A stretch of 64,000 nucleotides of DNA from Methanosarcina sp. MTP4 (GTDB taxonomy: Archaea; Halobacteriota; Methanosarcinia; Methanosarcinales; Methanosarcinaceae), in the NCBI RefSeq assembly GCF_000970045.1, contig NZ_CP009505.1, positions 3,186,808 through 3,250,807 on the forward strand, read 5' to 3'. Below are positions 1-9,544 of this stretch, in pieces (positions within the stretch are counted from its first letter, which is position 1; every line of letters starts with the position of its first letter). The notes below the pieces were generated by a model. The model searched no databases. It was not told the DNA's origin and saw nothing but the letters and a program-made list of their open reading frames with translations. The translations under genes were made by a program, and so were the position numbers.

Positions 1-226
1 GGGCATTTGTCGCTGCAAGGGAGTGGGAAGTCGGGCAGACCCCGCAGATCCTCTGGGTAAGAAGGGCAGCATCCCGGGGGTCCTGGTGCTGGAGGAAACG
101 TTCAAACCCCCTGAGCATAAGCCCCATGCTCTGGGCTTCCGTAATCACCCCTTCCTCGTTGACCTGGGTGTCGATCCTGTAATGCCCTTCAATCCGGGTA
201 AGCTGATCAACCGTAACTTTGACCAT
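1..226 (-). CDS. vhoA: Methanophenazine-reducing NiFe hydrogenase large subunit, N-terminal part (cut by window edge)
   Basis: The 75 codons visible begin at an ATG (224-226) immediately after the stop of the small-subunit gene. They encode a start very like the complete large subunit at 3262-5049: a [10 protein letters not shown] opening and the L1 Ni-ligand motif [10 protein letters not shown] near residues 58-67. The large subunit binds the NiFe(CN)2CO centre and splits H2 on the outside of the membrane, carried through the Tat pathway together with its small subunit. The rest, including the C-terminal Ni motif, lies left of the window, so I cannot tell whether the gene is intact. I call it vho rather than vht because the complete operon here carries the D gene, as vht does in Methanosarcina mazei; this naming is an inference. 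Confidence 0.9.
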
Positions 227-1480
227 TTACTGATCCTCTCCTTCATCTTTGCCCGCTTTTCTACCTGGAACTTCCTCCGGTTCTTTGCCCGGCGCTTGCT
301 CCGGCTCTTTACCTGGAGCTTCCTCGGTCTCTTTTCCTTCAGTCACGGCGACTCTCCGGATAGCATGGGCTCCTACCGCAAGCATGGAAGCCCCGATAGC
401 CACTTTCGCAACGGTATCAATATTTGTGCCTGCAATCCCCACGTCCTCAATTTCCTGGAAAAAGGGGCGTGAACTATCAGGGAAACCCGGAGATACACAG
501 GAGATACACGGGGACCCTGACTGAGGGCAGAGGCTGTGGTAGCCATTCCAGCGGCGTATGGCACAGTCCGCATGGGTATATGGAGCCTTGCACCCGAGTT
601 TCCAGAGACATTTCTCCCCGCCTACGACGGTATCAAACTCTCCTTTGTCGTAGAACCCCCTTCTAGGGCAGTTATCGTGGATGACATAATCAGGAGGGAA
701 AAAGACTTTCGGACGCAGCCATTCATCCAGAACCTCAGGGAGGTCGTCGGGAACTTTGATCTTCCCCAGCACCACCGCTCCCAGGGTCAGGAGCATCCAG
801 TCCGGGTGAGGAGGACAACCGTTGATATTAATAACGGGCTTTTCGATTCCCAGTTCCTGCAGCATTCCTTTCTCCCCGTCTTCCATGGTAAAAGCAACCC
901 CGCGGAAGTCCATAAGGTCCTTGATCTCACTGTCCGCCGAGTTAACCCCCCCGTTCGTTGCACACTGCCCTACTGCCACGATTAAAGAAGCATTTTCAGC
1001 AGCCTCCCGGAAAATATCCTTATAGGTCTTGCCCCCCAGAATCATGTACTTGCCCGTGCCTTTCGGGCCATTGGCAATAGCCCCTTCCACAACCAGGATA
1101 TAACCTTCCTCTTCAATAACTTCTTCAAAAAGAATTTCAGAATTAAGTTCGGAAGTATTTGCCATCTCCCCGTCCACGTAAATCCCCTGCTGCCCGAGCA
1201 GGAGCTCGTGATATTCAAGTCGGATGTTCAGGCGGTCAAAAGCCTGCAAAACATCAGGCTCACCTCCATTTAACAGGGACTCGGAACAACCCGTACACTC
1301 CCCACCGTGGATCCAGACAATCCTGGTTTCCGCGAATTCCAGGGCTTTAACAATATCGCTTCGATAAGTTTGCAAAAACAGAGACGCTCCCAGAGCCCCT
1401 AAGGCTTTCAGGAACGTTCGTCGCCCCATCTTCATAAAATCAAGATTCTTGAATCGGTCAGGAGAGATTCCTCTACCCAT
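227..1480 (-). CDS. vhoG: Methanophenazine-reducing NiFe hydrogenase small subunit (second operon)
   Basis: This is the iron-sulfur small subunit that moves electrons from the NiFe site to cytochrome b. A twin-arginine signal (GRRTFLKALGALGASLFLQ) sits near residues 19-37, followed by the proximal-cluster motif CTGCSES and later cysteines in [18 protein letters not shown] and CISC contexts. I chose the ATG at 1480 because a GGAGGTG ribosome-binding site precedes it by a few bases; an open frame runs 21 codons further upstream. A hydrophobic segment near the C-terminus could anchor it. The protein then ends in an unusual charged tail of repeated PGKEPE-like units, absent from its paralogue at 5052-6206. 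The stop abuts the vhoA start, so the two are translationally coupled. Confidence 0.92.
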   Translation of the reverse strand: MGRGISPDRFKNLDFMKMGRRTFLKALGALGASLFLQTYRSDIVKALEFAETRIVWIHGGECTGCSESLLNGGEPDVLQAFDRLNIRLEYHELLLGQQGIYVDGEMANTSELNSEILFEEVIEEEGYILVVEGAIANGPKGTGKYMILGGKTYKDIFREAAENASLIVAVGQCATNGGVNSADSEIKDLMDFRGVAFTMEDGEKGMLQELGIEKPVININGCPPHPDWMLLTLGAVVLGKIKVPDDLPEVLDEWLRPKVFFPPDYVIHDNCPRRGFYDKGEFDTVVGGEKCLWKLGCKAPYTHADCAIRRWNGYHSLCPQSGSPCISCVSPGFPDSSRPFFQEIEDVGIAGTNIDTVAKVAIGASMLAVGAHAIRRVAVTEGKETEEAPGKEPEQAPGKEPEEVPGRKAGKDEGEDQ

Positions 1481-1775
1481 ACAACACCTCCACCAGAGTA
1501 GAATATTATTACATAAGAAAGTCCTGAATATAATTAATATCATAAACCAATCGATAAATAGCTTACCTAAAAAAAGAATATCGTTCGAGCAAAAGAAGAA
1601 AATGTCACCTATCTTTAGCAGGGGTTTTCCCCTCCATAAGGAGCTGATCTATTCAAAAAACAGCACCATGCCAGACCTTTCCAGAAAGCCATTATTTGCA
1701 AGTGGATGCCAAAATGCTATTACCCTTACATGCGGAAGGCCGCTCTCACGTCAAGGAAAAGAAAAGATTAATTCT
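1481..1775. other. Intergenic spacer between vhtD and vhoG
   Basis: This 295-bp spacer separates the end of vhtGACD from the start of the vho operon on the same strand. On the minus strand a TTAATTATATTC stretch near 1529-1540 is a possible TATA box for vhoG. No convincing gene is present. Confidence 0.4.
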
Positions 1776-1843
1776 GGAAAAAAGAAAAAGAAGGAAAAAA
1801 GCAGTTCCGGATCAAAACTGATCAGGATCAAAACTGATCAGAA
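1776..1843 (-). terminator. T-rich terminator after vhtD, with a 16-bp tandem duplication
   Basis: On the minus strand the vhtD stop is followed by two copies of a 16-bp unit (about 1809-1841) containing GATCAGTTTTGATC and then a long T-rich run (complement of 1776-1800). The first copy covers the last codons of vhtD, so the gene tail was duplicated into the spacer. T-rich tracts are the usual archaeal termination signal. Confidence 0.55.
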
Positions 1844-2313
1844 ACTTCTTCCCTGATCAACCGGACTGCCTCGTTTACGGCTTCAAGCACATCAGGGCTC
1901 ATTTCCATTGTAATTTCCGTAGCCTGTTTTCCTATTTCTATGCCGAAGACCACGATTTCCGGAAGTTCCTGCACCTGTTCCCCTATCTTCAGGACATCGG
2001 ATATGGTCATGTCGTGTACCGAAATGATGTCGTGGGGTGCAGTGCCTGCTATCAGGTCCAAGCCGGAAAGCCGGTGAATGGTACCTGCCCGGGCGCCGGT
2101 CAGGATCGCGTCAACAATTATGACTTTCCGGGCGCCATCCAGCAGGCTTAAAAGGTCCAGGCCGCAAACGCCAGCGTCTTCTACTTCAAGGCCGTCAAGC
2201 CCTTCAAGTTCCGTTTTTTTAAGGGCTTCAACAACCTTCAGGCCGACGGCGTCATCTCCCATGAAAGGGCTTCCGCAGCCCAGGATTCGGACCGGAGCAT
2301 TTAATATAGACAT
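1828..2313 (-). CDS. vhtD: Hydrogenase maturation endopeptidase for the Vht large subunit
   Basis: This 161-residue protein belongs to the HycI/HyaD/HoxM protease family, which removes the C-terminal extension of the large subunit once nickel is inserted. The family signature GCGSPFMGDDAVG is at residues 12-24, with the nickel-sensing Asp/Glu (GDD), and VDA lies near residue 66. Its substrate should be VhtA, which ends 16 residues after its DPCVACAVH motif. It is the last gene of vhtGACD, 115 bp after vhtC. The length is normal for the family. VhoA may also depend on it, because no protease gene is seen next to the visible part of that operon. Confidence 0.92.
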   Translation of the reverse strand: MSILNAPVRILGCGSPFMGDDAVGLKVVEALKKTELEGLDGLEVEDAGVCGLDLLSLLDGARKVIIVDAILTGARAGTIHRLSGLDLIAGTAPHDIISVHDMTISDVLKIGEQVQELPEIVVFGIEIGKQATEITMEMSPDVLEAVNEAVRLIREEVSDQF

Positions 2314-2428: not shown

Positions 2429-3247
2429 CTACTCTTTTGCGGCATCCAGGACTTTTTCGGATGAATCGTGCCAGACAAGCTCTCTGTCAGGCACGTTGTT
2501 CCTCGGTTCATGGCCCACGATATCAACGAAGTGCCTATCTGCAAGGTTTTCCTTTCCTGACCAGAAAATTGCCCTGTAGTACTTCCAGACATGGGGGTCG
2601 AATTCCAGGATCCCGATGTGCACCACCAGTTCAAAGACGAACCAGTAGGTCATGAGCAGGTGAATCGCCCTCATTAACTGCAGGGAAGACATACCTAAGA
2701 AAGGTGCCATCAGGTCCCCTGCCGAAAGGATCCAGGAGCCCACGGGAAGCCCGAAAAGAACCCAGTCAAGCTTGTACAGGACAATTCCCGAAACTGCAAT
2801 GACCAGGATAGCAGTACCTTCCAGCACGATAAGGATCTTCATCAAGGGGTGAAGCTTTGTCTTGTAGTGCCCCTCGACCTCATCATAGATGGTAAATGCC
2901 GGGTAGTCACCCTTCCCGAAGAAATTTAACATTATTGCTTTCAGGCGCATTGCATCTTCAAGGCTGAAGATATACGTGTCCATGAAATGTTCCATTTTTG
3001 CCTGAACTCCGCCCTCACTTGCAGAGAAGATGTTGTAAGGGATCAGAATCCAGTTCACCGCAAGGAGAACCGGAACCATGATCATATGAAGAGCTCTGGC
3101 GTTGTGGAAGCTCATGAAGTCCCAGCCCATATAGATTTTTAACCCTGTCAGGATAAGCACTACCATTGCAAAAGCATGGGTGGTGTGAGCCACCCTGTCG
3201 AGTACCGTGTAGCGCTCAACAACCATAGGGTTGTTTTTGCCTCTCAT
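2429..3247 (-). CDS. vhtC: Hydrogenase cytochrome b subunit (methanophenazine reductase module)
   Basis: This 272-residue integral membrane protein carries electrons from the hydrogenase small subunit to methanophenazine and contributes to proton-motive force. It has about four to five hydrophobic segments, with histidines placed as haem b ligands (for example VAHTTHAF near residue 21 and the ALHMIM, AIHLLM and VVHIG contexts). The start follows GGAGATGATC. It lies 14 bp after vhtA in the operon. The C-terminal 40 residues are polar and cytoplasmic. The length and the position after the large subunit match VhtC/VhoC. Confidence 0.93.
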
Positions 3248-3261
3248 GAAAGATCATCTCC

Positions 3262-5049
3262 TTATACGAGTCTTAAGGTTTTAGGAGCGTTTTTCCCGGT
3301 AAGGTCAATGGTGTGAACCGCACAGGCAACGCACGGGTCATAGGACCTGCCGATATGCAGGATGTTAACAGGGTTAGAATAATCGATACCGAGTGCGTTT
3401 TCCGCCGCATTGATCTTTGACCCGATCAGGGCCTGCTCAAGCGGACCCGGGACACCTGCACCGTCCCTCGGGGACATGTTCCAGGTACTCGGAACCACGG
3501 GCTGATAGCGGACAACCTTTGAGTTGCTGTCTGTGGAGACCCAGTGCCCGAGAGCTCCGCGGGGAGCTTCCCAGAGTCCCATGCCTTCGGAGTCCTTCGC
3601 CATGGAAAGGTCAGTGTGCACGGAAATCTTGCCGTTCGGGTCATAGTCAACAGTTACCCACTTAAGGAGCTCATTTGCGATAATGGCAATCTCCTGGATG
3701 CGGGCCACCATCCTGGTGTAGGTGTTTGCCGGAGAGTATCCGTTATCCTTGAAGGCCTGGGCCAGTCCGGTCACCAGGGGCTCTTTCATAGCGAGCAGGC
3801 GGGAAAGGGGACCGACTTCACAGGGTATGCCTTCATATCTCGGGGCCTTGCCCCAGGTATACCTACTCTCGGAGCCGCGGTCATAGCGGATTTCTGCAGG
3901 ATCGCCTATTGGGTTTGTCTCACCCTTCGAGGGGTGAAGTTCCCCGGTATCTTCATAGAAAGCGTGTGAAACGCCTTCGGTGATCTTGCTGGCATCGAAG
4001 TTTTTGTATTCGAGGTTTCCGGTCACGATACCCGAGGTCTGGAAACGGTCGCCTGCCGGGCTGTTCGGATCGTACCCGTCCCCGTTTTCAGTCTTGTAGA
4101 AAGCGCCGAAAGCCAGGAAGTTGATCTTTGAGGGATCGCTATATCCGCCGGTACGGTCGTGTTTCAGGCTGGCCGGAAGCCCGAGGAGGGTTTCGCCCAC
4201 AAGTTCGGAACCGAATGCGGCGTAGAATTCCGTGTCACCCCAGCCGGCTTCCCTGCTGAAGTTGTTGGAAGTGACGGTGCTGTCCACGAGCCCCTGGAGG
4301 TGCTCGAGCACGAAGTTCACGGCCTTCTGGGGAGAGCTTGCCTTATAGGTATTTTCAATCCAGGTCTCGAAGGGAACTCTTAAGGTGTAGCTGGAAACAA
4401 AGTCCATCACCTGAAGGTAATAAGAGGAAAGTTTGCCGATGTCTGCGATGTTTGGCTTGTAGGTGTACCCACCCGGGTAGGAAGTGACCTGGTGAGGCAT
4501 CTTTCCACCGATGACTGCGATGGCTTCCTGAAGGCGTTTCTTTTCAGGGATTGCTGCAAGGTAGGAGCTGCCTGGCGGAATGGCATTCCCATCAATCCTG
4601 TAGCTGATAGGGGCAAACCTGCCCACAAGTTCCTTCCAGACAGCACTTCCGGTTTCTCCAAGAGGGGTAAGGACATTGCGGTAAGAGGGGTTTGCAAGGT
4701 CAGGGCCCCAGAGCACATAGACATGGGTTGCGTGGCTTGCAAGGGTGTTTAACGCCTGGTTGATGTTCCTTGCCACAAGAGCATCCTTGGGCACACTGTC
4801 AGCAACCCCGAAGAGCTGGTCAAGAGCATTTGCTGCTGCTAGAGAGTGAGAAGTAGGACAGACCCCGCAGATCCTCTGGGTAAGGAGAGCAGCGTCTCTG
4901 GGATCCTGGTTCTGAAGCATGCGTTCAAAGCCCCTGAACATCAGGCAGGAACTCTGAGCATCGGTGATTACACCTTCTGCATTAACCTCGGTGGACAGGC
5001 GGAGGTGGCCTTCAATCCTGGTAAGGGGATCGACTGTTACGTTTACCAT
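3262..5049 (-). CDS. vhtA: Methanophenazine-reducing NiFe hydrogenase large subunit
   Basis: This 595-residue catalytic subunit oxidises H2 at a NiFe(CN)2CO centre. The two nickel-binding motifs are complete: [10 protein letters not shown] near residues 58-67 and DPCVACAVH at 571-579. Sixteen residues follow the final histidine, the tail VhtD would cleave, so the enzyme is made as a precursor. It has no signal of its own and should be exported with the Tat-bearing small subunit. The start is 2 bp after the vhtG stop, which suggests coupled translation. It is a membrane-bound [NiFe] enzyme of group 1, not an F420-reducing or Ech type. Confidence 0.96.
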
Positions 5050-5051
5050 TT

Positions 5052-6206
5052 TTAATCATCTCCTTTCATTCTGCGCACTGCATGTACACCTGCGGCAAGC
5101 ACGGATGCACCGACTGCGGCTTTAGAGACGGTATCGATATTTGCCCCGAGGAACACGCCCTTGTCCTCAGCTTCAACATACAGGGGTCTTGCAGAATCCG
5201 GGAACCCGGGCTCCACACAGGCAATGCAGGGGGAACCTGCCTGGGTGCACATGCTTACGGAACCGTTCCAGCGGCGCAGGGCACAGTCCGAGTGGGTGTA
5301 AGGAGCTTTGCAGCCTAACTTCCAGAGGCACTTTTCCCCTCCGATTTCCGTATCGAATTCCCCGCGGTCGTAGTAGCCGCGCCGGGGACAGTTTTCATGC
5401 ACCGTGTGCCCGGGGGGGAAGAATACTTTGGGTCTTCCAAACCTGTCCAGAGCGGAATTGAGGTCGTCGGGAATCCTGAGCTTTCCAAGGATTACCGCCC
5501 CAAGGGTCAGGAGGATCCAGTCAGGGTGCGCAGGACAGCCAGGGATATTGATCACAGGCTTGCGGATGCCAAGTTCCTGGAGCATGCCTTTGGAGCCGTC
5601 TTCTTTTGTGAACTGCACTCCCCTGTAATCGGTAAGCTCGGAAACGGCACTGTCTGCGGAGTTTATTCCTCCGTATGCTGCACAGGTGCCCACTGCAAGA
5701 ATAGCGTTAGCGTTCTTTGCCGCTTTGGAAAAGAGTTCCTTGAAGGGCCTGTTCCCAATCACGCAGTAGCGGCCGGAACCATGTGGTCCGTTTGCGATTG
5801 CGCCTTCAACGATCAGGATGTAGTTGCCTTCTTCGATCAGTTCATCAACGAGGATTTCGGAGTTCAGCTCTGAGCTGTTTGCAGGCTTCCCATCCACGAA
5901 AAGTCCCTGCTGAGCAAGGAGGGTCTCGTGGTAAGCGAGATTAACGTTAAGCTTGGTAATCGCCTGGACAATGTCCGGGTTGCCACCGTTTAAGATGGAT
6001 TCGGAACAACCTGTGCATTCCGCCCCATGCAACCAGACAAGCTTTGTCTCTGCAAATTCAAGAGCACTTACAATCTCCGTTTTGTACGTACCGAGAAATG
6101 CCGTTGCACCGACTGCGCCCACGGCTTTTAGAAAGGTACGCCTATCCATATTTAAAAAGTCCATACTCTCCAGTGTATGAACCAAATTTTTTTTTCCAAT
6201 GACCAT
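5052..6206 (-). CDS. vhtG: Methanophenazine-reducing NiFe hydrogenase small subunit
   Basis: This 384-residue Fe-S subunit opens the vhtGACD operon. A Tat signal is visible at residues 20-45 ([20 protein letters not shown]). The proximal cluster motif CTGC is at 64-67, and further cluster cysteines lie in the CPAHP, CPRRGYY, CLWKLGC and [11 protein letters not shown] contexts. The hydrophobic C-terminal helix followed by RRMKGDD looks like a membrane anchor. I kept the first ATG; a second possible start (MDFLNMDRR, residue 15) also has a GGAGAG in front. It is clearly homologous to vhoG but lacks the repeated charged tail. Confidence 0.95.
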
Positions 6207-6214
6207 ATTCTACC

Positions 6215-6310
6215 ACATCTTGTTTTTTATATACCCAAACTATATGTCCGAAAGGAAAATGGTTCTTAAATATTCGTTGAAATTATATAAATCGTTATAT
6301 AAATATGCAG
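6215..6310 (-). promoter_or_regulatory. Promoter region of the vht operon with tandem TATA boxes
   Basis: Upstream of vhtG the minus strand shows two strong TATA-like elements about 15 bp apart (ATTTATATAA and GATTTATATAA, complement of about 6284-6306) and a third (GGTATATAAAAAAC, about 6219-6231) closer to the gene. Boxes at 6284-6306 would give a leader of about 60 nt. The nearer box would place transcription almost at the start codon, so it is less likely to be the main one. Confidence 0.5.
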
Positions 6311-6890
6311 ATAATATTTGGAATGAGTAAATAGTATTTAAGTTTTTTTACATGAGAAAATAAATATATTTTTCTATGAAATGAAAGTTATAAGTATTCT
6401 TTTGAAAATATATGATTATGTTTAATTTAATAATGACCATCAAAGGACATGAATATACATAGAGAACCAGAAATAACCAGACGAGGAAAATCTAAACTTT
6501 TGAAATAATAATGATAGATTCACACTGATGCAAATAACAAAAATATAGAAAAAATGATTATTAAAAGATCTATAATTATATAGAAAGTACTAAAAAATCA
6601 GAAATAATTATTGAAAAATAACACCAAAAATAAAACACATATTTTAACATTTAAATGGATTCAATTCTGATTTCGAGAAAAATATAGGGGAAAAACCCCG
6701 GAAAAATTAAGGTAAAGATAAGGCAATAAAGAGGAATAAATTTTCGAGCAAATGAGGGAAATTTTCATTTATACCTCATATACACCTTTCAATACATGTT
6801 ACATACCGTCCTCTTAATTCAGCTTACATACCTTTTCAATTCAGCTTAAATGCCTTTCCAGTTCCTCTGACGTACACTTCCAATTCAGCT
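6311..6890. other. AT-rich intergenic region without recognisable genes
   Basis: About 580 bp of very AT-rich DNA lie between the vht promoter and the hydrogenase gene fragment. I see no open frame with a ribosome-binding site, no tRNA and no clear repeat. Near 6765-6885 there are short repeats of a CATACC/TTCAATTCAGCTTA type. Confidence 0.4.
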
Positions 6891-7061
6891 TCATATTATT
6901 CTTAAAATGCCCGGAGCGCTCTTCCCTGTTAGGTCGAGGATATGGACAGCGCATGCAATACAGGGGCCGTATGACCTTCCAACATGGAGGATATTGACCG
7001 GGTTGGAGTAATCGATGCCGAGAGAGTTTTCCACAGCGTTAATCTTTGTTCCGATCAAAGC
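6891..7061 (-). pseudogene. C-terminal fragment of a third hydrogenase large-subunit gene
   Basis: The minus strand encodes 56 residues that match the last 56 of VhtA closely, from [20 protein letters not shown] to the stop, including the second nickel motif and its 16-residue tail. The motif reads GPCIACAVH here, so the nickel-site aspartate has become glycine. The match stops abruptly at about 7061; upstream codons are unrelated and the reading frame there has no ribosome-binding site. This is the tail of a deleted vhtA/vhoA paralogue. No matching vhtG or vhtC pieces were found next to it. Confidence 0.85.
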
Positions 7062-7601
7062 ACGATATACATAAAAAATACAGAATTCTTTTGAAATGCA
7101 ACGGAGCATGATAATACTATGTAAAATTTATAGTCCAAAAAGAGAAAACAAAAAGGTTATAAAAGAGAACTATAAAAATGCAGGAAATAATTTTGGGTAT
7201 ATATTTGTTTTAAAAAAACAGTGTGAAAGGTTTGAAGAAGGCTTTGCGGCATGCCATGTAGGCCTCATGCAAATGGTAAACTGCAGGGAAACCGCTAAAC
7301 CTTGAGACATAAACGGTTATAAAGTGCAGAGAATACATAATATAGGGAGAACAGGGAAAATTACAATCTGGAGATAGGTGCAGGAACTTACCGGAAAAGT
7401 TACCGGGACTTACCTGAAACGGAACCGGGAATTTCTGAAAAGAGCCCGGTACTCACAAAAAAATCCAAAAATAAAAAAATCCGGCAAACCCCAAAGCCCG
7501 GGAAAGGGCCACACAGATTGTTTTCATGCATAAATATTTCTCACCTGAAATATGGTTCTCATACACTTACGGATTTTAAAAGAAAAAACAGCAGAGGTAA
7601 C
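7062..7601. other. Intergenic region upstream of hypC
   Basis: This 540-bp stretch holds no convincing gene. A TGCATAAATATTTC element near 7527-7540 on the plus strand is a possible hypC TATA box, which would give a leader of about 45-50 nt. Several imperfect repeats of a CTTACCGG/GGGACTTACC type lie at about 7385-7450. Confidence 0.4.
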
Positions 7602-7883
7602 ATGTGTATAGCTATTCCTGGAAAAGTTAAGGCGATCATCAATGAAAACACCGCCACCGTCGATATGGGTGGAGTCCGCAGAGACGTGAACATGGACCTG
7701 CTGGGAGGGGCAAGCGAAGCCCTGCTCGGGAAATACGTGCTGGTTCATGTGGGCTATGCCATATCGGAAATCTCCGAAGAAGAAGGAGAAGAAACCATGC
7801 GCCTCCTGAAACTGATGGCAGGGCTGGATGACGGAGAGCTCGGTTTTGAGGAGACCTTACCGGAAAACAGGGAAACTGATTGA
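7602..7883 (+). CDS. hypC: Hydrogenase maturation chaperone HypC
   Basis: This 93-residue protein begins MCIAIPGKV, the family signature in which Cys2 binds the Fe(CN)2CO unit together with HypD and delivers it to the large-subunit precursor. The ATG at 7602 follows a GAGGTAA site; the open frame upstream would put the essential cysteine in the interior, so it is rejected. The C-terminal 20 residues are acidic. It opens the hypCDABE cluster, one base from hypD. Confidence 0.96.
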   Translation: MCIAIPGKVKAIINENTATVDMGGVRRDVNMDLLGGASEALLGKYVLVHVGYAISEISEEEGEETMRLLKLMAGLDDGELGFEETLPENRETD

Positions 7884-7884
7884 A

Positions 7885-9003
7885 ATGGCTTCCGAAAACC
7901 CCCAACCGAAACAGGGGATTCCCGAAATCGAAAAGAAGCTCCTGGAGAGAATCGAAGCCTCGGCCCGGCCGCTTCGCATAATGCACGTCTGCGGGACCCA
8001 TGAGCGGACAATAGCGAAATACGGGCTTCGGAGCGTGCTCCCGGAAGAAATCGAAGTAATCAGCGGCCCGGGCTGCCCTGTATGCGTCACCCCCGAAGCA
8101 GATATTGACATTGCAATCGCCCTGGCAAAGAGCGGGGCAAGCGTGGTAACCTTTGGGGATATGATGCGGGTCCCGGGCTCCGCGGGCAGCCTGCTGGACG
8201 CAAAAGCCGAAGGTGCGGACGTGAGGATGGTCTACAGCATAGACGATGCCGTAACCCTCGCGGAAAAAAAGCCCGGGCAGGAAGTGGTCTTCTTAGGGAT
8301 AGGCTTCGAGACCACGGTCCCTGCCAATGCGGCAACCCTCCTTCGGGGCGTGCCTGAAAACTTCAGCCTCCTTGTTTCCCAGAAGCGGACACCTCCGGCA
8401 ATAGGACTGCTTGCCAGGGACACCGAAGTGGACGCCTTTATTGCCCCGGGACATGTGGCAACCATCATCGGGACAAAACCTTTCGAGCCCCTTGCAGAGC
8501 AGGGTTTCCCCACAGTCGTGAGCGGGTTTGAAGCGTACGATGTCCTCCTTGGGATTTCCCTCCTCCTGGCCCAAATTGAAAAAGGTGAAGCAAGGGTTGA
8601 TAACGGGTATCCGAGGGTCGTTAAGCCCGAAGGGAACCTGATTGCCCTGAAAATGATGGAAGAGGTTTTCAAGACCGCGGATTCCGAATGGAGAGGCATC
8701 GGGAATATAGATAGTTCCGGGCTTGTCCTGAAAAAGGAGTTCGAAGAGCAGGACGCAGCAAAGAGGCATGAGGATTTCTATGCAGCCGCCCTCGGAGAAA
8801 TCGGGAAAAAAGCCGAAGGCAGAGATAAAAAGCGCTGCATCTGCGCTGCTATCCTTACCGGAAAGGCAAAACCCCCCCAGTGCCCGAACTTTGGAAAGGA
8901 CTGTACCCCAAAAACCCCTGCAGGTCCGTGCATGGTCAGCCAGGAGGGCATGTGCTACAACTGGTTCAAGTATGCCAGGACAGGAGGCAGCGGGCGTGCA
9001 TGA
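7885..9003 (+). CDS. hypD: Hydrogenase maturation factor HypD (Fe-S protein)
   Basis: HypD (372 residues) is the [4Fe-4S] scaffold on which the Fe(CN)2CO group is built. The motifs are present: the CGTHE context near residue 36, GPGCPVC near residues 65-71, and the C-terminal cysteine cluster (CICAAI, QCPNFGKDC, GPCMV, GMCYNW). I chose the ATG at 7885, just after the hypC stop at 7881-7883, because it gives the usual family length. The end overlaps hypA by 8 bp, so the genes are translationally coupled. Confidence 0.96.
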   Translation: MASENPQPKQGIPEIEKKLLERIEASARPLRIMHVCGTHERTIAKYGLRSVLPEEIEVISGPGCPVCVTPEADIDIAIALAKSGASVVTFGDMMRVPGSAGSLLDAKAEGADVRMVYSIDDAVTLAEKKPGQEVVFLGIGFETTVPANAATLLRGVPENFSLLVSQKRTPPAIGLLARDTEVDAFIAPGHVATIIGTKPFEPLAEQGFPTVVSGFEAYDVLLGISLLLAQIEKGEARVDNGYPRVVKPEGNLIALKMMEEVFKTADSEWRGIGNIDSSGLVLKKEFEEQDAAKRHEDFYAAALGEIGKKAEGRDKKRCICAAILTGKAKPPQCPNFGKDCTPKTPAGPCMVSQEGMCYNWFKYARTGGSGRA

Positions 9004-9544
9004 GTACTCTATTGCCTGCGAAATCTTCGAACAGGTGATCGCTACCGCCAGAGCCCACGGGGCATCCGAAGTCAAGGCCGTGACCCTTCAGATGGGAAGG
9101 CTGACCCACACGAACCCGGAACAGCTAAAGTTCTGTTTCGATGTCCTTGCAGAAGACAGCATTGCCAAAAGGGCGGAATTTTTGGTGGAGATGATCCCCC
9201 CAACCGTAGAATGCGAGTGCGGATACATGGGTACTGTCGATACCCCCGGAAAGCCAGCTGGCAAGTCTGAAGAGGACAGAAGCGAAGGAGGGGGCAAAAG
9301 CGGAAGCGAAAATGGAGACGAAAACAAAGCCGACGCTGAAAACGAAACCGGACTTCAACAGAGCGAACTGCTGGAATACGTTGCAGCCCTTAACTGTCCA
9401 GCCTGTGGGAGAGCTGCCCGAATTACAGGAGGACAGGAACTCATCATTAAGACGATAGATATAGAGACCGAACCCGAAGCTGAGCCTGAAGCTGAAACTG
9501 AAGTTGAAACTAAAGCTGAAACTGAACAAGGAAACCGGGCTTGA
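8996..9544 (+). CDS. hypA: Nickel-insertion protein HypA with acidic insertion and tail
   Basis: HypA brings nickel to the hydrogenase precursor with HypB. The GTG at 8996 yields VHEYSIA, the expected HypA N-terminus with the Ni-ligand histidine at position 2, and an AGGAGG site lies just upstream inside hypD. The zinc site is split: a CECG half near residue 70 and a CPACG half near residue 133. They are separated by an acidic Gly/Ser/Glu-rich insertion. A Glu-rich repeated tail (EPEAEPEAE) ends the protein. At 182 residues it is much longer than the usual 110-140. The start is a rare GTG, but the motif at residues 2-7 makes it convincing. Confidence 0.9.
   Translation: MHEYSIACEIFEQVIATARAHGASEVKAVTLQMGRLTHTNPEQLKFCFDVLAEDSIAKRAEFLVEMIPPTVECECGYMGTVDTPGKPAGKSEEDRSEGGGKSGSENGDENKADAENETGLQQSELLEYVAALNCPACGRAARITGGQELIIKTIDIETEPEAEPEAETEVETKAETEQGNRA

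Follow-up and report, generated by a model that had tools for sequence, protein, structure and literature searches.

Vht and Vho are hydrogenases that bind the membrane. Encoded in Methanosarcina by vhtGACD and vhoGAC, they are the methanophenazine-reducing enzymes assigned to [NiFe] group 1k (PMC5037454, PMC6030560), and Vht is described as recapturing extracellular H2, its repression being lethal in M. barkeri (PMC6030560). Additional sets of genes have been described in the genus, namely vhxGAC of M. barkeri, reported to be inactive, and vhtG2A2C2 of M. acetivorans, reported to be weakly expressed (PMC6030560, PMC2838876). The MIC hydrogenase of Methanococcus maripaludis, FohAB, is described as an enzyme outside the four classical groups that is exported by the Tat system, has a small subunit with a hydrophilic C-terminus and travels with tatA, tatC, fohD and fohE, and the island encoding the Methanococcus MIC hydrogenase was reportedly lost from one strain by a 12 kb deletion (PMC6181927, PMC12667266). 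N-X-S/T sequons are described as lost in some MIC enzymes (PMC12667266), and iron corrosion by a methanogen other than M. barkeri has been connected with a secreted hydrogenase (PMC6181927).

The window analyzed here is a stretch of 64,000 nucleotides from Methanosarcina sp. MTP4 (NZ_CP009505.1, positions 3,186,808 to 3,250,807; Table 1), in which a preliminary description had noted, without giving a strand, a piece of a third hydrogenase large-subunit gene lying between the vht and hyp genes. That placement is correct, with vht on the minus strand and hyp on the plus strand, and intact copies of the gene occupy the same place in relatives. The fragment is almost certainly the 3' stump of a third pair of small and large subunit genes, termed G3 and A3, that was left behind by one deletion of about 3 kb. 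Taken alone, such a stump is an ordinary deletion relic, and it draws attention to a third hydrogenase of the relatives that is seemingly exported yet not membrane-bound. The names vhtC and vhtD are our assumption, taken from position and from the known vhtGACD operon, and we likewise take the first hyp gene to be hypC.

Table 1. Features surrounding the relic, in positions of the window.
Feature	Position	Strand	Basis or remark
vhoA, first 75 codons; whole gene intact beyond the window	2..226	-	genome search, locus comparison
vhoG; mechanical ORF whose true start is probably internal	227..1543	-	ORF list, locus comparison
vhtD (presumed), maturation protease	1828..2313	-	position and known operon
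vhtC (presumed), cytochrome b	2429..3247	-	position and known operon
vhtA, intact large subunit	3262..5049	-	ORF, Pfam
vhtG, intact small subunit; Tat motif and C-terminal hydrophobic segment	5052..6206	-	
Spacer from relic to vhtG; its counterpart in relatives, between A3 and vhtG, is colinear	6207..6890		
Relic, 3' end of the third large-subunit gene (A3)	6891..7061	-	56 sense codons and TGA
Deletion junction, 22 bases unaligned by blastn	7062..7083		
Intergenic DNA towards hyp, which aligns colinearly with DNA upstream of G3 in BM5_bin.6 and BL5_bin.6	7084..7601		
hypC (presumed), first gene of the divergent hyp block	7602..7883	+	translation

Translation of the plus strand across the relic meets stops in frame; the relic frame is that of the minus strand, where its codons run without an internal stop. 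The product matches PF00374, the nickel-hydrogenase model of Pfam, over the final 25 positions of that model (E 2.2e-05), and its score of 24.1 bits falls narrowly below the curated cut-off of 25.8 bits. Its L2 motif reads GPCIACAVH where the family has DPC, so that the altered Ni motif of the preliminary description, Asp replaced by Gly, is indeed present in this C-terminal piece. When every locus, the bacterial ones included, was scanned with the patterns RxYxPCxxCxxH or RxFxPCxxCxxH, Asp was found at this position in 53 of 54 distinct contexts and Gly in the relic alone, where the replacement involves two base changes (GAT to GGC). Judged by the GPC motif and by a score below the cut-off, the relic itself is no functional member of the [NiFe] hydrogenase large subunits.

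Intact G3-A3 pairs lie between the hyp genes and vhtGACD in BM5_bin.6 (G001, locus L016), BL5_bin.6 (G002) and Methanosarcina sp. KYL-1 (G095), as revealed by the comparison of vho and vht loci across relatives that the preliminary description had proposed, which was made with one genome per species. The A3 frames are open over 600, 600 and 597 amino acids, respectively, all three contain DPCIACAVH, with its DPCIAC, and the BM5_bin.6 protein scores 302.5 bits against PF00374. Among three other genomes of the same genus, BM5_bin.6 and BL5_bin.6 hold the full third large-subunit gene, with 89% and 88% identity to the relic over its length. In the three loci with the pair, hypE, hypB and hypD are on one strand and G3, A3, vhtG, vhtA, vhtC, vhtD, vhoG, vhoA and vhoC on the other, A3 and vhtG being separated by about 630-820 bases, and in none of them is the pair accompanied by a cytochrome b gene (C) or a protease gene (D) of its own. 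The A3 proteins are 86-89% identical to MTP4 VhtA, and G3 shares 71-73% identity with the VhtG proteins of its clade. Gene order and trees were taken from 19 archaeal records (L016-L034) of 77 loci, leaving aside L082 (Methanocellales, partial) and the other 57, which are bacterial by title; the pair stands between hypD and vhtG in three of the 16 archaeal records that show both genes and is absent from 13.

Across 111 genomes of the family, G3 is matched at 82-100% in four (G001, G002, G003 and G095), the next best match, at 73%, being VhtG. In G003 an intact G3 is present and a search with the A3 tail returned the vht and vho tails only. Its G3 contig, C159, ends 11 bases into the start of A3 (L124 2673-2683) and another of its contigs ends inside vhtA (L015 9904-10101), as is expected where an assembler meets two near-identical copies, and we infer an A3 in this genome whose sequence itself is unassembled. 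Two other loci stand apart from these. At G100:C86:6520-9192 there are vho-like large and small subunits, each in two pieces, perhaps a decaying set or assembly errors, and at G025:C5:390672-391673 a small-subunit match contains one in-frame TAG. TAG is read as pyrrolysine in some such archaea.

The extent of the deletion emerges from the alignment with these relatives. By blastn, window positions 6100-7061 align with BM5_bin.6 12459-11501 (86%; 77% for the BL5_bin.6 counterpart) and positions 7084-7700 with BM5_bin.6 8518-7841 (78%; 71% for BL5_bin.6), so that about 2,982 bases, L016 8519-11500, are missing and G3-A3 falls inside the gap. All of G3 (L016 8688-9872) is lost together with 542 of the 598 codons of A3, or about 90% of that gene; the left end of the gap is uncertain by tens of bases because the DNA is AT-rich, and the 22 junction bases are unexplained. 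A single event is the simplest reading of the gap. The preliminary description had allowed for a frameshift in case an intact frame existed in other strains; such a frame does exist in relatives, but here some 3 kb are deleted between colinear flanks, which rules out a frameshift. Recombination between A3 and vhtA was also considered and rejected as the cause of the deletion, because the product would lack vhtG and carry one fused large-subunit gene; in MTP4, vhtG and vhtA are each complete.

Which gene the relic belonged to was left in the preliminary description as a choice between vhoA and vhtA. At the protein level vhtA is indeed the closer of the two (77%, 94.7 bits in the whole-genome search, far above chance, versus 58% for vhoA), and neither is the best match, which is BM5_bin.6 A3 (89%). 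In DNA the relic is 89.3% identical to A3 of BM5_bin.6, 88.1% to that of BL5_bin.6, 75.6% to that of KYL-1 and 72.0% to the vhtA of MTP4. When the last 56 codons were placed in a tree, the relic grouped first with BM5_bin.6 A3 (bootstrap 90), then with BL5_bin.6 A3 (98) and then with KYL-1 A3 (91). The 77% protein identity to vhtA is what would be expected if the 3' end of vhtA (or vhoA) had been copied into the intergenic region and had then drifted. Against this very improbable origin, the relic has the tail of A3, with 88-89% DNA identity to A3 of two relatives versus 72% to its own vhtA, both of its flanks are colinear with the A3 locus, and the 56-codon tree contradicts it. Still less probable is that the third gene is complete elsewhere in the genome and that the stump is the leftover of a move: nothing was found in support of this, the tail search found three places only (the stump, vht and vho) and the G3 search two (vht and vho), and these searches, which returned no second copy of the missing pair, covered a 4.21 Mb genome in one contig that is given as 99.91% complete.

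How the remnant of A3 has changed can be judged against BM5_bin.6. Between MTP4 and BM5_bin.6 the identity is 84.1% in the spacer (679 aligned bases; 77.8% over 623 for BL5_bin.6), 89.3% in the relic, 92.6% in vhtG, 94.1% in vhoA and 94.5% in vhtA. Relative-rate tests of private changes in the relic and in BM5_bin.6 A3 gave 12 versus 5 with BL5_bin.6 as outgroup (p 0.072) and 9 versus 7 with KYL-1 (p 0.40), so that faster change in the relic appears as a trend only, one that fits decay and leaves neutrality without proof. It could be argued that the stump was kept for a function, as a short peptide, a regulatory RNA or a leader upstream of vhtG, since its frame is open, six of its ten relic-only codon changes are synonymous (four are not, and two more are shared-ambiguous) and the relative-rate test is not significant. 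The mechanical ORF reaches back to an ATG at 7109 to give 72 codons, of which the leading 16 are unrelated to hydrogenase; no Shine-Dalgarno-like sequence was seen by eye in the 31 bases preceding that ATG, the L2 aspartate has been lost, the identity to BM5_bin.6 is near that of the spacer, and a short frame is expected to stay open for a while after a deletion. A retained function is therefore very improbable, and the stump is most likely untranslated and drifting, given that the rest of the enzyme is gone, that there is no likely start site and that the L2 aspartate is missing. On the hyp side, a noncoding block upstream of hypC (7145-7206) is matched at about 76-85% in KYL-1, DH2 and 2.H.T.1A.6, with no match in STD2_179; it is thus matched also where G3-A3 is absent and is perhaps a shared hyp/vht control region.

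The large subunits of this locus also carry a record of gene conversion. The suggestion in the preliminary description that vhoA and vhtA had converted each other is not borne out in any of four genomes tested; the partner of conversion is instead the third gene, with vhtA. Identical stretches shared by vhtA and A3 of one genome measure 347 bases in BM5_bin.6, 303, 240 and 185 bases in KYL-1, and at most 59 bases in BL5_bin.6. When the 297 silent variable codons were permuted 10000 times and the longest concordant run was scored, the A3-vhtA runs of 56 codons in BM5_bin.6 and 71 in KYL-1 were equalled by none of the 10000 permutations, and the run of 11 codons in BL5_bin.6 by 470, which is weak. 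Judged by these runs, two of the three genomes where both genes are seen give a strong case for conversion between A3 and vhtA. The other pairings were rejected: the longest silent-site runs for vhtA-vhoA in four genomes spanned 5-6 codons, a length attained by 3965-9488 of 10000 permutations, and those for A3-vhoA were 6, 7 and 9 codons, reached in 5671, 1116 and 653. The last 70 or so codons stay distinct, with 73-81% identity between A and A3 in codons 526-575 and 551-599, and the three A3 genes form one clade (84) when codons 526-599 are placed in a tree. The locus thus clearly exemplifies conversion between paralogous genes in which one gene end is spared.

A trace of the lost gene may even persist in MTP4 vhtA, where residues 382-385 (GDPA, window 3895-3906) match A3 and none of seven other vhtA genes compared. 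Five of 88 informative sites in this vhtA are A3-like and three of the five are adjacent at the GDPA patch (chance 0.0075). At the level of runs no A3 footprint was detected in MTP4 vhtA (11 codons with BM5_bin.6 A3 and 9 with BL5_bin.6 A3, reached in 1252 and 680 of 10000 permutations). Since the patch was tested after being seen and the run test was null, it is only a hint of conversion by the lost gene.

The nature of the lost enzyme can be approached through G3. A twin-arginine motif, DRRTFLK, is present in all four G3 proteins, in agreement with the RRxFLK signal. The G3 of BM5_bin.6 scores 19.8 bits against the NCBIfam Tat model TIGR01409 (cut-off 16.7), which also matches VhtG; the Pfam TAT_signal model matches VhtG and does not match this G3. 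Both small-subunit Pfam domains are matched by BM5_bin.6 G3, and 11 cysteines are at positions shared with VhtG in the three G3 listed. Past the conserved RPFY, the C-terminus is hydrophilic in all four G3, and in the three counted it has a length of 41-53 residues, many of them Asp, Ser or Gly. By a crude 19-residue hydropathy measure, a C-terminal hydrophobic segment occurs in none of the four G3 versus all 51 other complete VhtG/VhoG rows, in which its hydropathy is merely 1.07-2.09. These VhtG/VhoG segments are read as anchors because Vht and Vho are known to bind the membrane and because of a published comparison of small-subunit C-termini. That comparison includes VhoG (PMC12667266). In MTP4 itself, the C-terminus of VhoG (window 227-335) has EAPGKEPE-like acidic repeats past the hydrophobic segment, in a number different from that in BM5_bin.6, and a repeat search on the vhoG tail found nothing. 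A midpoint-rooted small-subunit tree was built from 50 of 56 rows after removal of L023_8299, which is cut, and of rows identical to others. In it the G3 proteins form a monophyletic group (100/100), whose long stem (0.61) arises within the VhtG clade (99/98) at a position that the tree does not fix.

From these sequence features, G3-A3 probably represents a group 1 hydrogenase that is exported, has no anchor and works without a cytochrome b, and the simplest reading is that it would not feed the methanophenazine chain through VhtC. An ancestor of the MTP4 lineage would have carried this Vht-type pair between the hyp block and vhtGACD, its products presumably maturing with the help of the shared hyp genes and of VhtD and its A3 perhaps kept partly vhtA-like by gene conversion, as in two relatives, until one deletion of about 3 kb, starting upstream of G3 and extending through codon 542 of A3, removed all but the stump of the pair. 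A broader proposal is put forward tentatively and is on balance doubtful. It holds that G3-A3 evolved from membrane-bound Vht in some Methanosarcinaceae into an exported, unanchored enzyme with an acidic tail, acting apart from the cytochrome b chain, for instance in H2 electron exchange with minerals, metal or partner cells at or outside the cell surface, as an independent counterpart of the MIC hydrogenase whose large subunit was repeatedly homogenized with vhtA except near the C-terminus and which was lost here. BM5 and BL5 correspond in name to marine-sediment enrichments, benzoate-magnetite and benzoate-lepidocrocite, in which Methanosarcina is given as the main archaeal genus (PMC8115662); the link is by name only, and neither "bin.6" nor "hydrogenase" occurs in the text available from that paper. 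A literature search whose reach left out most subscription journals found no description of the G3-A3 pair and no paper on the habitat of KYL-1. Since a natural, unanchored relative of Vht is kept by some close species and has been lost from another, what such an enzyme offers a Methanosarcina can be tested directly.

Compared with the described enzymes, G3-A3 resembles Vht/Vho in its Tat motif, Fe-S cysteines, L2 motif, C-terminal extension and hyp-adjacent locus, and differs from them in the lack of a hydrophobic C-terminus on G3, the lack of a C or D gene and the distinct tail of the large subunit. Like vhxGAC and vhtG2A2C2, it adds a further Vht-like set to a Methanosarcina genome, and it is set apart by gene content, as both of those have a C gene and G3-A3 does not. 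Its likeness to FohAB lies in the predicted Tat export, the hydrophilic C-terminus of the small subunit and the deletion of the locus in one lineage. Unlike in FohAB, however, G3 falls within VhtG, none of three tails contains an N-glycosylation sequon, and hyp and vht genes flank the pair; G3-A3 is not regarded as a member of the MIC hydrogenases because of the position of G3 inside VhtG and the tails without a sequon.
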